This document shows, piece after piece, positions 12,685 through 18,128 of a DNA stretch of 64,000 nucleotides. Position 1 is the first letter of the stretch; each line of letters begins with the position of its first letter. A program made the translations under genes and the position numbers. Below the pieces are notes generated by a model that saw only the letters and a program-made list of their open reading frames with translations, did no database searches and was not told the origin of the DNA. The DNA is from Acidobacteriota bacterium (lineage in GTDB: Bacteria; Acidobacteriota; UBA6911), in contig JAAYCX010000057.1 of assembly GCA_012729555.1 (NCBI GenBank), positions 1 to 64,000 of the forward strand, written 5' to 3'.

Positions 12685-12718
12685 AGGTGCCGGCCGATGC
12701 GCGATCGGCCCGGCGCCT
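12685..12718. terminator. Hairpin between the HEAT gene and folB
   Basis: AGGTGCCGGCCGAT and ATCGGCCCGGCGCCT pair over 14 bases with one bulge and one wobble. Terminator-like but without a T-run. Confidence 0.35.
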
Positions 12719-12748
12719 GGAAGGCGCGCGGGGCTAAGGGGTACATTC

Positions 12749-13132
12749 TTGGAAGACCGGGACCGCATGACGCTGGCCGATGTGAGGCTGCTGGCCCGCA
12801 TCGGCGTCAGCGAGGAGGAGCGGGAGGCGCCGCAGGAATGCCGGGCGGACCTGGAGCTGTACGGCAGCTTCAGGGCCGCGGCCGAGACGGACGATCTCGC
12901 GCTCTCCATGGACTACTGCCGGATCCTGGACTGTGTCGAGGAGACGGCCGCGGAGCGGCCCTACCGGCTGGTCGAAACCCTCGCCTGGGCCCTCGCCCGC
13001 AAGGTCCTCGGGAATTTCCCCGTAGCCCTCGCCCGCGTGAGACTGAGAAAACGCCCGGCCGCTCTCGAGGGGCGGCTTTCCTTCGTCGAGGTGGAAATGG
13101 AGCAGCGGCGCCCCCCCGGGAGGCCGGAATGA
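12749..13132 (+). CDS. folB: Dihydroneopterin aldolase (folate pathway)
   Basis: 127 residues from a TTG at 12749 preceded by AAGGGG, or 121 from the ATG at 12767, which lacks a clear ribosome-binding site. The T-fold landmarks of FolB are present: [20 protein letters not shown], then [16 protein letters not shown] and [16 protein letters not shown], where the Glu of LVETLA is the conserved substrate-binding residue. It converts dihydroneopterin to hydroxymethyl-dihydropterin and glycolaldehyde. Its stop overlaps the nuoB ATG (ATGA), so a folate gene leads the operon containing complex I subunits. Confidence 0.85.
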
Positions 13133-13608
13133 AACCGCACTCCGGCGACCGGCCGGGCCCGGTCGCCTCCGGCGTCGAACGCGTGGTGGCCTGGGCTCAG
13201 CAATATTCCCTCTTCGTCTACCCGTTCGTCACCGCCTGCTGCGGGATGGAATACATGTCGACCGCGAGCGGCCATTACGACATGGACCGGTTCGGAGCCG
13301 GCCTGCCCCGTTTCTCTCCCAGGCAGGCGGACGTGCTGCTGGTGGTGGGCACCATCAGCCACAAGATCGCCCCCGTGCTGCGGCGGGTGTACGACCAGAT
13401 GTGCGAACCCAAGTGGGTGGTCGCCTTCGGCGTCTGTACGTGCACGGGGGGGTTCTACGACAACTACGCGACCGTGCAGGGGATCGATACCATAGTTCCC
13501 GTCGATGTCTACATTCCGGGCTGCCCCCCCCGGCCCGAGGCGGTCCTGGAAGGAATCATGAAGCTTCAGACCAAGATCGGCCGCCAGCGGCCCGTCCTCC
13601 TCAGGTGA
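13129..13608 (+). CDS. nuoB: NADH-quinone oxidoreductase subunit B
   Basis: 159 residues. It carries the N2 4Fe-4S cluster of complex I at the inner membrane. The ligands are visible: tandem Cys37-Cys38 (TACCGMEY), Cys103 in [13 protein letters not shown], and Cys132 in [12 protein letters not shown]. Length is normal. It overlaps folB by four bases and precedes nuoD by four bases. nuoA is not upstream and nuoC is not between nuoB and nuoD, unlike standard nuo operons. Confidence 0.93.
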
Positions 13609-13612
13609 TGCC

Positions 13613-14953
13613 ATGGCCTCCTCCCCCGGCGGCACGGAAACGCGCAGCATGCGGCTCAACATCGGCCCCTCCCACCCGGCCATGCACGGGGTCATCCGCC
13701 TCGTCACCGAGCTGGAAGGGGAGAAGGTCCTGAGGGTGGAGGCCGAAATCGGCTACCTCCACCGCGCCTTCGAAAAGAAGTGCGAGGACTCCACCTGGAG
13801 CCAGGCCATTCCCTACACCGACCGATTGAACTATGTCTCGCCGCTGATCAACAATTTCGGCTACTGCGCCGCCGTCGAAAAGCTGATGGGGATCGAGGTG
13901 CCCGAGCGCGCCGGGTACATCCGCGTCCTCATGAGCGAAATCTCGCGCATCACGGACCACCTGACCTGCATCGGCGCCACGGCCATGGAGCTGGGCGCCA
14001 TGACGGCCTTCCTCTACCTGATGAAGGCGCGCGAATACCTCTACGACATCGTGGAGCGGGTCACGGGCGCGCGGCTGACGGTGTCTTACGGGAGGATCGG
14101 CGGCGTCAAGGCCGACCTCCCCGAAGGGCTGGCCGAGGATCTTCCCGGGACGCTGGACGCCGTCGCGCGGGAAATCGGGGAAGTGGACCGGCTGCTGACG
14201 CGCAACCGGATCTTCGTCGACCGGATGCGGGACGTGGGCGCCCTTTCCCGGCAGGACGCCCTCGGCTACTCGATAACGGGCCCCGTCGGGCGCGCGTCGG
14301 GGATCGATTACGACGTTCGCAGGGATTTCCCCTATTTCGTCTACGACCGGGTCGATTTCGAGGTGCCCCTGGGGGAAAGGGGGGACACCTACGACCGGTA
14401 TCTCGTGCGGATGGAGGAAATGCGGCAGAGCATGCGCATCATCCGGCAGTGCCTCGACCGGCTTCCCGGCGGCCCGGTGCGGGCGGGGGAAAAGGAGAAG
14501 GTCGTGGAATCGTTCGAGCTGGTGGACAGGGCGAAGCGGGGGCGCACGGCAGGACTCGTCGGCATCGAGTGCACCCTGCCGCCGACGCTGGGCGGGGCGG
14601 AACGCGCCGTCTACGACCGGGTCATGGCCCGCGAGAAGCGGACGGCGCTTCCGGTCAAGGCCGATACCTACGCCAACATCGAGGGGCTCATGAACCATTT
14701 CATGCTCGTCATGGACGGGCACGGGGTGCGCCCCCCGGCCGGGGACGCCTACTTCGCGGTGGAGGGGGCCAACGGGGAACTCGGGTTTTTCGTCGTCAGC
14801 GACGGAACCGACCGGCCCTGCAGGGTGCGGGTGCGCCCCCCCTGTTTTTTTGCCATGGCCGGGCTTCACAAGATGCTGGAAGGGGGGCTGGTGGCCGACA
14901 TCGTGGCCACCTTCGGTTCCATCAACATGATCGCGGGGGAACTGGACCGCTGA
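13613..14953 (+). CDS. nuoD: NADH-quinone oxidoreductase subunit D (49-kDa type)
   Basis: 446 residues; quinone-site subunit of complex I. It opens with LNIGPSHPAMHGVIRL, the NuoD form of the usual GPQHPxxHG, and has EIGYLHRAFEK, SRITDHLTCIGA and the C-terminal AGLHKMLEGGLVADIVATFGS...GELDR. The nickel-binding CxxC pairs of [NiFe]-hydrogenase large subunits are absent, so this is a complex I protein and not a hydrogenase. About 35 extra residues (roughly 305-340, around RTAGLVGIECTLPPTLGG) precede the conserved YANIEGLMNHF. An ATG at 13649 is an alternative start. Confidence 0.93.
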   Translation: MASSPGGTETRSMRLNIGPSHPAMHGVIRLVTELEGEKVLRVEAEIGYLHRAFEKKCEDSTWSQAIPYTDRLNYVSPLINNFGYCAAVEKLMGIEVPERAGYIRVLMSEISRITDHLTCIGATAMELGAMTAFLYLMKAREYLYDIVERVTGARLTVSYGRIGGVKADLPEGLAEDLPGTLDAVAREIGEVDRLLTRNRIFVDRMRDVGALSRQDALGYSITGPVGRASGIDYDVRRDFPYFVYDRVDFEVPLGERGDTYDRYLVRMEEMRQSMRIIRQCLDRLPGGPVRAGEKEKVVESFELVDRAKRGRTAGLVGIECTLPPTLGGAERAVYDRVMAREKRTALPVKADTYANIEGLMNHFMLVMDGHGVRPPAGDAYFAVEGANGELGFFVVSDGTDRPCRVRVRPPCFFAMAGLHKMLEGGLVADIVATFGSINMIAGELDR

Positions 14954-14971: not shown

Positions 14972-15733
14972 ATGACTCTGATGATAACGTTGAAATCAAA
15001 ACGTGAAATCGAAATCATGCGCGCGAGCGGCCGCATCGTCGCGGAAGTGCTGGCCGAGGTGCGGCAGAAGTGCAGGGCGGGCGTCACCACGCTCGAACTC
15101 GACCGGGCGGCGGAGGCGGCGACGGCGAGAAACGGCGCCGTTCCCGCCTTCAAGGACTACCGGGGGTATCCCGGGTCCCTCTGCACCTCGGTCAATCACC
15201 AGGTGGTGCACGGCATCCCCGGCGATTACGAGATCAAGGAGGGGGACATCGTTTCGATGGACTTCGGCGTGCTCTACAAGGGCTATTACGGCGACAGCGC
15301 GATAACGGTCGGCGTCCCGCCCCTCGCGGGGGATACCGCGCGGCTGCTCGAAGTGACGGAGCAGTGTCTTTACCGCGGCATCGAGCAGATGCTGCCGGGG
15401 AATCACCTTGTGGACCTTTCGCGCGCCATCCAGGTGCACGCGGAGTCGGCCGGCTTTTCCCTGGTCAGGGAATTCGGCGGACACGGGATCGGCCGCAGCC
15501 TGCACGAGGACCCGATGGTATTGAACTATGTCTCCAATGGCAGGGGCATCCGGCTGAAGGCGGGGCTGGTGCTGGCCGTCGAGCCGATGGTCAACCAGGG
15601 AGGGGAGGAGGTGGAAATCCTGCCGGACGGCTGGACCGTCGTGACCTGCGACCGCAGCCCCTCCGCTCATTTCGAACACACGATCGCGGTCACCGAAAAC
15701 GGCCCCGAGATCCTCACGCAGACGGCCGGGTGA
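14972..15733 (+). CDS. map: Methionine aminopeptidase, type I
   Basis: 253 residues. Removes the initiator methionine from nascent proteins. Metal ligands are in order: Asp in VSMDFGVLYKGY, Asp in YYGDSAITV, His in FGGHGIGRSLHEDP, Glu in AVEPMVN, and Glu in HFEHTIAVTENG; the catalytic His lies in SVNHQVVHGIP. No N-terminal zinc-finger extension. ATG 14972 and ATG 14981 are both possible. It is the fourth gene of the folB-nuoB-nuoD run. Confidence 0.93.
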   Translation: MTLMITLKSKREIEIMRASGRIVAEVLAEVRQKCRAGVTTLELDRAAEAATARNGAVPAFKDYRGYPGSLCTSVNHQVVHGIPGDYEIKEGDIVSMDFGVLYKGYYGDSAITVGVPPLAGDTARLLEVTEQCLYRGIEQMLPGNHLVDLSRAIQVHAESAGFSLVREFGGHGIGRSLHEDPMVLNYVSNGRGIRLKAGLVLAVEPMVNQGGEEVEILPDGWTVVTCDRSPSAHFEHTIAVTENGPEILTQTAG

Positions 15734-15738
15734 GGCGC

Positions 15739-16545
15739 ATGCTCTCGCGGATTCTCCCCTACATGCGCTGCCCGCGATGCTCGGCCGACCGGCTCGAACT
15801 CCGTCCCGACGGGCTGTCCTGCCCGGCCTGCGGCTCCGGCTTCGATTCGCAGGAGGGGGTCCTCGACATGATCGGGGAGGATCCCGGCGAGGTGATCACT
15901 CCCTTCCAGCGCCTCATGCAGTCGCGGGCGGTCGTCTCGGTCTACGAAAACTCCTGGAGGCACCTGGGCTATTTCCTCGCCAGTTCCCGCTCCTTCTCCC
16001 GGGAAATGGAGACCGTGCTGAGCCTCGCCGGGGAGCGGGGGGACGGTCCGGCTATGGACCTGGCCTGCGGCCCGGGGGTCTTTACGCGCCCCCTGGCGCG
16101 CCGCCTGGGCGGAATCGTCATCGGGCTCGATCTTTCCCGCCCCATGCTGCGTCAGGCCGCGCGGCGGATCGCCGAGGAGGGAATCTCCAACATCCAGCTG
16201 GTCCGGGCCTCGGCGTTCGCCCTCCCCTTCGCGGACGGCGTCTTTTCGCACGTGAACTGCTGCGGCGCCCTGCACCTGTTCGATCGGCCGGAAAAGGCTC
16301 TCGCGGAGATCGCCCGCGTGACCCGGCCCGCGGGGGGATTGTCGGTGCAGACGACCATCCGGCCCGAGCGCTCGGCCGGACTGGCCTACATCCTGGAGCG
16401 CTTCATCCGCTTCGGCTTCTTCGACGAACAGGAACTGCGCCGCCTGCTGCTGTCCCAGGGCTTTTCCATCGAGCGGGATGAGCGCCACCGCATCAGCTTT
16501 ACCTTCCTGGCCAGACGCCTCTCCCCCAGCAGCTCGCCGGTATAA
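15739..16545 (+). CDS. SAM-dependent methyltransferase with N-terminal zinc ribbon
   Basis: 268 residues. A CxxC...CxxC ribbon (MRCPRCSADRLELR and SCPACGSGF, residues 9-35) precedes a class I methyltransferase fold: motif I MDLACGPGVFTRPLA, the acidic end of strand 2 in VIGLDLSRPMLRQA, then VRASAFALPFADGVFSHV and CGALHLFDRPEKAL. The layout resembles RlmA-like and UbiE-like proteins, but the substrate (RNA, quinone or other) cannot be told. An ATG at 15739, six bases after the map stop, is chosen; a GTG at 15730 is an alternative. Probably cotranscribed with map. Confidence 0.8.
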   Translation: MLSRILPYMRCPRCSADRLELRPDGLSCPACGSGFDSQEGVLDMIGEDPGEVITPFQRLMQSRAVVSVYENSWRHLGYFLASSRSFSREMETVLSLAGERGDGPAMDLACGPGVFTRPLARRLGGIVIGLDLSRPMLRQAARRIAEEGISNIQLVRASAFALPFADGVFSHVNCCGALHLFDRPEKALAEIARVTRPAGGLSVQTTIRPERSAGLAYILERFIRFGFFDEQELRRLLLSQGFSIERDERHRISFTFLARRLSPSSSPV

Positions 16546-16566: not shown

Positions 16567-16592
16567 ACTTTGTTGAAGATCATTTGCAAAGT
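16567..16592. promoter_or_regulatory. Inverted repeat upstream of the Fur-like gene
   Basis: ACTTTG (16567-16572) and CAAAGT (16587-16592) are arms around a GATC centre; 9 of 13 positions pair. It lies just upstream of the -10 at 16599, a plausible site for autoregulation by the Fur-like protein. Confidence 0.35.
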
Positions 16593-16595
16593 AAG

Positions 16596-16604
16596 TGCTA
16601 TGAT
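16596..16604 (+). promoter_or_regulatory. Extended -10 promoter of the Fur-like gene
   Basis: TGCTATGAT is an extended -10 (TGn-TATGAT, hexamer 16599-16604). The nearest -35-like element, TTGAAG at 16573, is 20 bp away. The predicted leader to ATG 16636 is about 25 bases with GGAGG in it. Confidence 0.5.
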
Positions 16605-16635: not shown

Positions 16636-17604
16636 ATGTCCATGCGAAAACTGAAGGAAGAGACCGAGCTTTTTTATTCCTACCTGCGCCGGAATGGACT
16701 GAAAAAAACCTACCAGAAGGACCTGATCCTGGAGACCTTCCTCAGCACCGAGGGGCACCTGAGCGTCGAGGATATCTACGCCCTGGTCAAGAAACGGGAC
16801 CGCAAGGTGGGTGTGGTCACCGTATTTCGCACCCTCAAGTCCCTCACCGCCTGCGGCATAGCCCGGGAAATCACGCTGGGGGACGGCCTGACCCGGTTCG
16901 AACACAACTACCGGCATCCGCGCCATCACCACATCGTCTGCACCAAGTGCCACAGGGCGATCGAGTTCGTCTGCCCCGAACTGGAGCGGATCCAGGAGGA
17001 GGTTCTCCGGAATTACCGGTTCCAGCCGGTCGACAGCGTGTTCCAGACCTACGGCCTGTGCGAGGACTGCCTCGCGGAACGCACTCCCCGCGAGGGGCCC
17101 AAGCACGACACCGACAGGATCTTCGCGCGCGATGCGGTCCGAATGGCGCTCGACGTGGCCTCCCGCTTCGCAGACTTTTACCGGTCGGCGGAGAGGCGGA
17201 ACCAGGACCCGGAGGGGAAGAGAGTCTGGGCCCGCATGGTGGAGGAGGAGGAGCGCCAGATCGCCGGGCTCAGCGGAAGGCTCGACGAGATCCTGCGGCA
17301 GGAAAAGGAGCTGGAAAGCGCTCCGGTCTTCCTGCACCTCGAGCCGCGGCGGTTCGCAGCGCTCTGCCCCGACCTGGCGGGTTACGAAAGGGACGGGGAA
17401 TTCCGGATGGACGCCCGGGCATCGCTGGGGCTGGTTCAGGCGCTCGGCCGCGCCTCGGCCGAATTCTTTCGCACCTTCGCGGAGCAGTTTGAAGAGACTC
17501 AGGGGAAGCAGGTCCTGCTGGCCTTTGCCGGCCAGGAGGAGTCTCACGCGGACTCGGTCCGGCAGGCGATGGAGCAGACCAGGGGCGCGGCCGAGGAGGC
17601 GTGA
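16636..17604 (+). CDS. Fur-family regulator fused to a ferritin-like domain
   Basis: 322 residues, about twice a normal Fur protein. Residues 10-75 are the winged helix (LKKTYQKDLILETFLSTEGH, GVVTVFRTLKSLTACGI). Residues 85-150 are the metal-binding dimerisation domain with RHPRHHHIVC and structural-zinc cysteines 102, 105, 142 and 145. After a linker, 165-322 form four predicted helices arranged like a rubrerythrin or ferritin-like domain (DVASRFADFYRSAE; MVEEEERQIAGL; GRASAEFFRTFAEQFE; FAGQEESHADSV). Only one ExxH pair (Glu301-His304) remains of the usual diiron ligands, so the second domain may sense or bind metal, or a partner, without catalysis. It lies between a methyltransferase and nuoI; the nuoI start region overlaps its stop. 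DNA target and metal are unknown. Confidence 0.75.
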   Translation: MSMRKLKEETELFYSYLRRNGLKKTYQKDLILETFLSTEGHLSVEDIYALVKKRDRKVGVVTVFRTLKSLTACGIAREITLGDGLTRFEHNYRHPRHHHIVCTKCHRAIEFVCPELERIQEEVLRNYRFQPVDSVFQTYGLCEDCLAERTPREGPKHDTDRIFARDAVRMALDVASRFADFYRSAERRNQDPEGKRVWARMVEEEERQIAGLSGRLDEILRQEKELESAPVFLHLEPRRFAALCPDLAGYERDGEFRMDARASLGLVQALGRASAEFFRTFAEQFEETQGKQVLLAFAGQEESHADSVRQAMEQTRGAAEEA

Positions 17605-17627
17605 GGCCGATCGTCAACGGGGGAGAC

Positions 17628-18128
17628 ATGGACAACCCTAAACAGAGACCGCTCGGCGTTCTGGAAGCCCTCTACCTGGTGGAGGCCGCCCGCGGGCTGA
17701 TGCTGACCGCCCGGCACTTCCTGGTCAATTTTCCCCGGCATGTCCTGCGCGGCACCGGGATAGGGGCGGGGAAGGGGAACACGGTCACCATAGAGTACCC
17801 CGAGGAACGGCGCCCCTTTCCGCCGAGGCTGCGCACGCGCCACCGGCTGGTCCGGCGCCCCGACGGGTCGCCCCGATGCGTGGCCTGCATGATGTGCGAA
17901 ACGATCTGCCCGGCCCACTGCATCCACATCACTGCGGGGCAGCACCCCGATCCCGACGTCGAAAAGATGCCGGTCGCGTTCGATATCGACCTGGGGGTGT
18001 GCGTATTCTGCGGATTCTGCGTGGAAGCGTGCCCGGAGGACGCCATCCGGATGGACACGGGGGTGGTGGAGCTGTCGGCCTACACCCGCGAGGGGATGAT
18101 CTACCGCATGGATCAGCTGCTCGGCTGA
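17628..18128 (+). CDS. nuoI: NADH-quinone oxidoreductase subunit I (8Fe ferredoxin type)
   Basis: 166 residues from the ATG at 17628 (GGGGGAG just before it); a GTG at 17601 overlapping the previous stop is an alternative. Two 4Fe-4S motifs are intact: Cys84, 87, 90, 94 (CVACMMCETIC-P) and Cys125, 128, 131, 135 (CVFCGFCVEAC-P). The N-terminal amphipathic segment (ARGLMLTARHFLVNF) docks NuoI to the membrane arm. It carries electrons between the peripheral arm and N2. It is separated from nuoB and nuoD by three non-nuo genes. Its 3' end overlaps the convergent XdhC-like gene by 16 bases. Confidence 0.92.
   Translation: MDNPKQRPLGVLEALYLVEAARGLMLTARHFLVNFPRHVLRGTGIGAGKGNTVTIEYPEERRPFPPRLRTRHRLVRRPDGSPRCVACMMCETICPAHCIHITAGQHPDPDVEKMPVAFDIDLGVCVFCGFCVEACPEDAIRMDTGVVELSAYTREGMIYRMDQLLG

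Follow-up and report, generated by a model that had tools for sequence, protein, structure and literature searches.

We analysed a window of 64,000 nucleotides, the stretch from position 1 to 64,000 of an Acidobacteriota contig (JAAYCX010000057.1). It contains a gene, with GGGAGG preceding its ATG start, that encodes a Fur regulator fused to a rubrerythrin-like domain (Table 1). The gene lies downstream of nuoB, nuoD, a methionine aminopeptidase gene and a methyltransferase gene, and is preceded by an intergenic stretch of 90 nt which holds a block conserved within the genus; a sigma-70 scan gave no match. The nuoI-like gene directly downstream is probably co-transcribed with the fusion gene. 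An earlier note on this DNA had placed the fusion in an operon with complex I genes. This argument is weak. The nuoI-like gene does follow the fusion directly, and in one further family (f3, locus L097) the fusion again has a NuoI-like neighbor, located there upstream, 590-135 bases before the fusion gene, instead of downstream as in the window. On the upstream side, however, there is the 90-nt gap with its conserved block. The linkage to complex I is local, as these genes are not adjacent to the fusion in most families; the neighbor conserved across the phylum is a gene for an ErpA-type carrier, described below.

Table 1. Fusion gene, its domains and helices, and neighboring features (window coordinates)
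Feature	Position	Strand	Remarks
nuoB and nuoD genes, upstream of the fusion	12697..14953	+	PF01058 (nuoB), PF00346 (nuoD)
Methionine aminopeptidase and methyltransferase genes, between nuoD and the fusion	14972..16545	+	
Genus-conserved upstream block, TTGAAGATCATTTGCA ... TATGAT	16573..16604	+	Candidate promoter/operator (putative function)
Fusion gene, Fur + rubrerythrin-like	16636..17604	+	322 aa
Fur domain, residues 20-134	16693..17037	+	PF01475 match
Ferritin-like four-helix domain, residues 159-321	17110..17598	+	Predicted (AlphaFold2), structural alignment
Helix 1, residues 159-188	17110..17199	+	Ala175 (17158-17160) in place of the canonical ligand Glu
Helix 2, residues 192-222	17209..17301	+	E205 kept; Gln208 (17257-17259) in place of the ligand His
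Helix 3, residues 260-282	17413..17481	+	Ligand Glu replaced by Gly271 (17446-17448)
Helix 4, residues 289-321	17497..17598	+	ExxH kept: E301 (17536-17538), H304 (17545-17547)
nuoI-like gene, 2x[4Fe-4S] ferredoxin subunit, directly downstream of the fusion	17629..18128 (or 17601-18128)	+	

The N-terminal part is a Fur domain. PF01475 matches it with an E-value of 4.4e-27 (95 bits against a curated cut-off of 23.1), and the residues of both the structural Zn site (C102, C105, C142 and C145, in two CxxC pairs) and the regulatory metal site (H41, E89, H97, H99 and E110) are present. These metal-site residues are intact also in every homologue readable at those positions. The domain matches solved Fur structures down to 2.7e-21. 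With the Fur proteins of C. jejuni (4ets/6d57), B. cereus (9ire) and H. pylori (2xig) it shares the winged-helix and dimerisation domain, the two CxxC pairs, the regulatory His and Glu residues and the length to about residue 150, whereas the fusion carries about 170 extra residues with a ferritin-like bundle. The PerR models of NCBIfam reached at most 61 bits against cut-offs of 180-250, and the Fur equivalog models likewise stayed under their own cut-offs, so the window protein could be assigned to no named subfamily.

For the C-terminal tail, AlphaFold2 run on the window protein with 26 locus-derived homologues (mean pLDDT 88.4, pTM 0.80) predicted four long helices. Structural alignment against the PDB (VIA-align) gave 2oh3, of COG1633, as the best match (Z 13.9 over 141 residues), followed by rubrerythrin 1ryt (Z 11.7) and by Dps and bacterioferritin (Z about 11-12.6). 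A Z of up to about 13 can be obtained with a generic helical bundle and the values of the window tail are near this level; therefore, the homologues weigh more than the fold alone. Among homologues with a canonical ligand set, L023 aligns with 2oh3 at Z 15.4 over 136 residues and passes the Pfam Rubrerythrin cut-off (E 2.9e-9, residues 166-310, profile positions 1-135 of 137). The canonical homologues score 37.9-52.1 bits on PF02915, over the cut-off of 22.8, whereas the window tail remains under it with 16-18.5 bits and, searched alone in Pfam, shows sub-threshold matches to DUF2383 and Rubrerythrin. When a profile of 13 canonical tails was compared with the PDB, it matched TM1526 (1vjx, 4.9e-11) and also 2fzf, de novo diiron proteins and 2oh3. 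Besides Pfam Rubrerythrin, canonical homologues gave weaker matches to the MbfA/EncB ferritin-like domains. The modelled window tail has a rubrerythrin/COG1633-type ferritin-like fold. In this sense, the joining of Fur to a degenerate ferritin-like domain claimed in the earlier note was borne out by the PF01475 match, the predicted four-helix bundle and its ferritin-like structural matches, and the homologues argue for a real ferritin-like domain and not for a lineage-specific spacer. Additionally, the tails of L023 and L101 resemble the ferritin domain at the C-terminus of PRK12775, with E-values down to 1e-15. This match starts ahead of the bundle, where the Fur domain ends; a common origin of the fusion tail and the PRK12775 ferritin module is possible.

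The same architecture was searched for in other genomes, as had been proposed. Of 396 Acidobacteriota genomes sampled and searched with a profile, 67, from about 20 families, encode the full-length fusion, and for this reason the open reading frame of the window is no assembly artefact. Many other genomes of the phylum contain a Fur that ends near residue 150. The fusion is thus a Fur variant that recurs in the Acidobacteriota and whose C-terminal domain is of rubrerythrin type (COG1633-like). In a plasmid set searched by tblastn we found Fur-domain matches only and not the fusion, and viral contigs gave no match. According to a Pfam FUR search, the fusion is the sole Fur-family match in 10 of 26 fusion-bearing genomes (G015, G018, G030, G036, G050, G075, G188, G195, G263 and G298), which are 93-100% complete. 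The window genome encodes two Fur-family proteins, the fusion and another one on contig C10. The gene of the latter (L002, 1501-2000) is directly beside a katG-like catalase-peroxidase gene, identified by reading its sequence, and its product is probably a PerR-like peroxide regulator. Since the other Fur of its own genome adjoins this catalase-peroxidase-like gene, the fusion is probably the iron regulator of the organism. A palindromic CCTAATTAGG-type element was also observed upstream of the C10 Fur gene.

The ligands of a diiron site were compared in an alignment of 51 homologues, at six columns that correspond to window positions 175, 205, 208, 271, 301 and 304. The complete set of E, ExxH, E and ExxH (E/E/H/E/E/H) is present in 41 of the 51, including every homologue examined outside f1 (the family of the window), these homologues spanning about 19 families. 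Inside f1 only one of 11 keeps all six ligands (the genus of L013); each of the ten other rows lacks between one and four, and the combination varies among them. H304 is the only ligand never changed across all the homologues aligned. In the tree, a branch with support of 91/72 sets the ten degenerate rows apart, the canonical f1 member being their sister. The window copy reads A175, E205, Q208, G271, E301 and H304, a combination that departs from the diiron set at three columns. The residues previously singled out are confirmed (the missing Glu of helix 1, the Gln in place of the helix 2 His and the ExxH kept in helix 4), although that inventory did not mention the loss of the helix 3 Glu. 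Classic diiron chemistry is unlikely in the window copy judging from these residues, as the earlier note had argued. D173 was considered as a substitute ligand and set aside, as it is two residues off on the helix and would point to another face. In the degenerate clade, erosion at the ligand columns does not significantly exceed that at the remaining strictly conserved columns of the tail (Fisher p about 0.07-0.15), so that an extra change at the ligand columns is suggestive only. A role of the tail in sensing iron, peroxide or redox state, as proposed in the earlier note, becomes less likely for the window copy, in which the ligand set that would serve it is broken; in most of its relatives this set is intact.

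Loss of ligands does not imply loss of constraint. Against its nearest relatives G004 and G006, the window tail has a dN/dS of 0.092 and 0.165, lower in both comparisons than that of the Fur part (0.162 and 0.265). The tail of this trio has no stops or frameshifts, and fold-core residues are fixed in the window clade (R165, D166, F181, L212, P230, F277, F278, G290 and F297). The degenerate window tail is under purifying selection. It could be argued that the tail of the window lineage is a decaying relic on its way out, as ligands were lost in different combinations across f1 and, in two other g1 pairs, the tail protein changes faster than Fur (dN 0.253 vs 0.039 and 0.166 vs 0.058). However, the low dN/dS of the trio (0.09-0.17), its uninterrupted reading frame and the confident fold prediction make a relic highly improbable. 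The same persistence of fold core and selection after ligand loss would be expected if the tail were, in all members, a mere dimerisation, oligomerisation or docking scaffold whose ligands hold a structural metal. Nevertheless, six ligands that are invariant in the homologues examined outside f1, from some 19 families, exceed what is expected for a dispensable metal, and we regard a scaffold-only role throughout the family as distinctly unlikely.

Across the phylum the fusion has a conserved neighbor. In all 22 divergent loci examined, a gene for an ErpA-type Fe-S carrier is directly upstream of the fusion on the same strand, with gaps of at most 235 nt; one predicted fusion start overlaps the carrier gene. 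These A-type carriers show the CSGF...CGCG signature, and for one of them the family was confirmed with PF01521 (4.3e-21). Sequence reading also identified a class-I-fumarase-like gene upstream of the erpA-fusion pair in 13 loci, without a family search, and a PHP-type phosphoesterase gene that often follows the fusion. The cluster erpA - fur-rubrerythrin - PHP phosphoesterase was observed in L069-L086 and L100-L103, from many Acidobacteriota families. No common operator was evident by eye upstream of erpA, and a canonical Fur-box search in the window organism's own genome returned only two near-matches, neither of them beside recognisable iron genes.

Several families of the class to which the window belongs did not show the erpA link, and in five genomes of the window's genus erpA is 2.5-4.9 kb upstream of the fusion. 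In the nearest relative, G004 (L003, 1767-2084), the carrier upstream of the fusion has two of its three cluster cysteines replaced (RDGF, CGYG); no erpA was found near the window fusion, nor any counterpart in the window of this degenerate carrier. We considered that loss of erpA might track loss of the diiron site, which is not strictly the case, as erpA is intact in several g1 genomes whose site is broken. Elsewhere in the window organism's genome (C12, L109, about 1165-1810) two adjacent genes have an in-frame TGA at an expected Cys, one thioredoxin-like ('FYADW[TGA]PSC') and the other HesB/IscA-like ('LNEGG[TGA]SG'), the latter being the only PF01521 match in this genome. A tRNA-Sec over the Rfam cut-off was detected there too and, because of it, both are probably genes for selenoproteins.

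Fur is known as a dimeric DNA-binding protein that responds to Fe(II), and bundles with the E-ExxH-E-ExxH set are known to hold a diiron centre reactive towards O2 or peroxide. We lean modestly towards a Fur variant in which the attached diiron domain tunes iron, O2 or peroxide sensing for Fe-S homeostasis, and in which the window lineage lost the site and retained the bundle in a structural or docking role. The ancestral fusion would regulate genes of iron and Fe-S homeostasis, including its own erpA operon. Its Fur domain would read Fe(II), and the diiron bundle would add information on O2/peroxide or iron load through the Fur dimer; alternatively, the bundle may give local ferroxidase protection to the Fur site. 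In the window lineage this diiron input appears to have been dismantled (A175, Q208, G271), the bundle probably persisting as a module that stabilises the dimer or docks a partner, and Fe(II) may be read via the Fur sites alone. More tentatively, the fusion could be a dual-input Fur operating phylum-wide in Acidobacteriota, often as the sole Fur. Its rubrerythrin diiron centre would be the sensor of O2/peroxide or iron load and would act directly on the Fur repressor of Fe-S cluster assembly; the site-loss series of one family would then represent an input switched off with the regulator retained.

A different explanation takes the tail as an enzyme with rubrerythrin-like peroxidase or ferroxidase activity. 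Tethered to Fur, it would remove peroxide or oxidise Fe(II) in the vicinity of the regulator, with no effect on DNA binding. The complete ligand set of canonical members and their Pfam Rubrerythrin and MbfA/EncB matches are in agreement with such an activity. However, the tail is permanently joined to a DNA-binding protein, often the sole Fur of the genome and encoded in an operon-like cluster with erpA, which suggests regulatory coupling. No electron-transfer domain of the rubredoxin type is seen, and the window copy, devoid of the site, is still under selection. We therefore judge a tethered enzyme unlikely.

The fold of the tail is common to the rubrerythrin/COG1633 group (PF02915; 2oh3, TM1526 1vjx, 2fzf, 1ryt). 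Canonical members of the fusion share with rubrerythrin the ligand set and a Pfam score over the cut-off, and differ in being attached to a DNA-binding regulator and in having no visible rubredoxin part; the window copy differs further in its three missing ligands and its score under the cut-off. An analogy, and only that, may be drawn with FBXL5, an animal hemerythrin-type iron/O2 sensor with ubiquitin ligase output: it also has a diiron four-helix domain on a regulator of iron homeostasis, but its fold family is unrelated and its output different. Ferritin-like add-on modules are known from Ava_4496 (3fse, DJ-1/PfpI with a ferritin-like domain), from PRK12775 (a redox enzyme with a ferritin domain) and from MbfA, in which a non-cage ferritin-like domain is joined to a VIT transporter (PMC7762939). 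Unlike in the fusion, none of their partners is a transcription factor. No published description of a Fur-ferritin-like fusion was found among the open-access papers searched; both domains are known, and their combination in a transcription factor is apparently undescribed in that literature.

The sensing of iron and that of oxygen or peroxide are usually divided among separate proteins, namely Fur, PerR and IscR. If the proposed role is true, the attached diiron domain would make Fur a compact alternative to such separate sensors in many Acidobacteriota, sometimes as the only Fur of the cell, and its tight linkage to an A-type Fe-S carrier would offer a ready-made target operon. Family f1 is also a natural experiment, with close relatives whose diiron sites are intact, partly broken or heavily broken.
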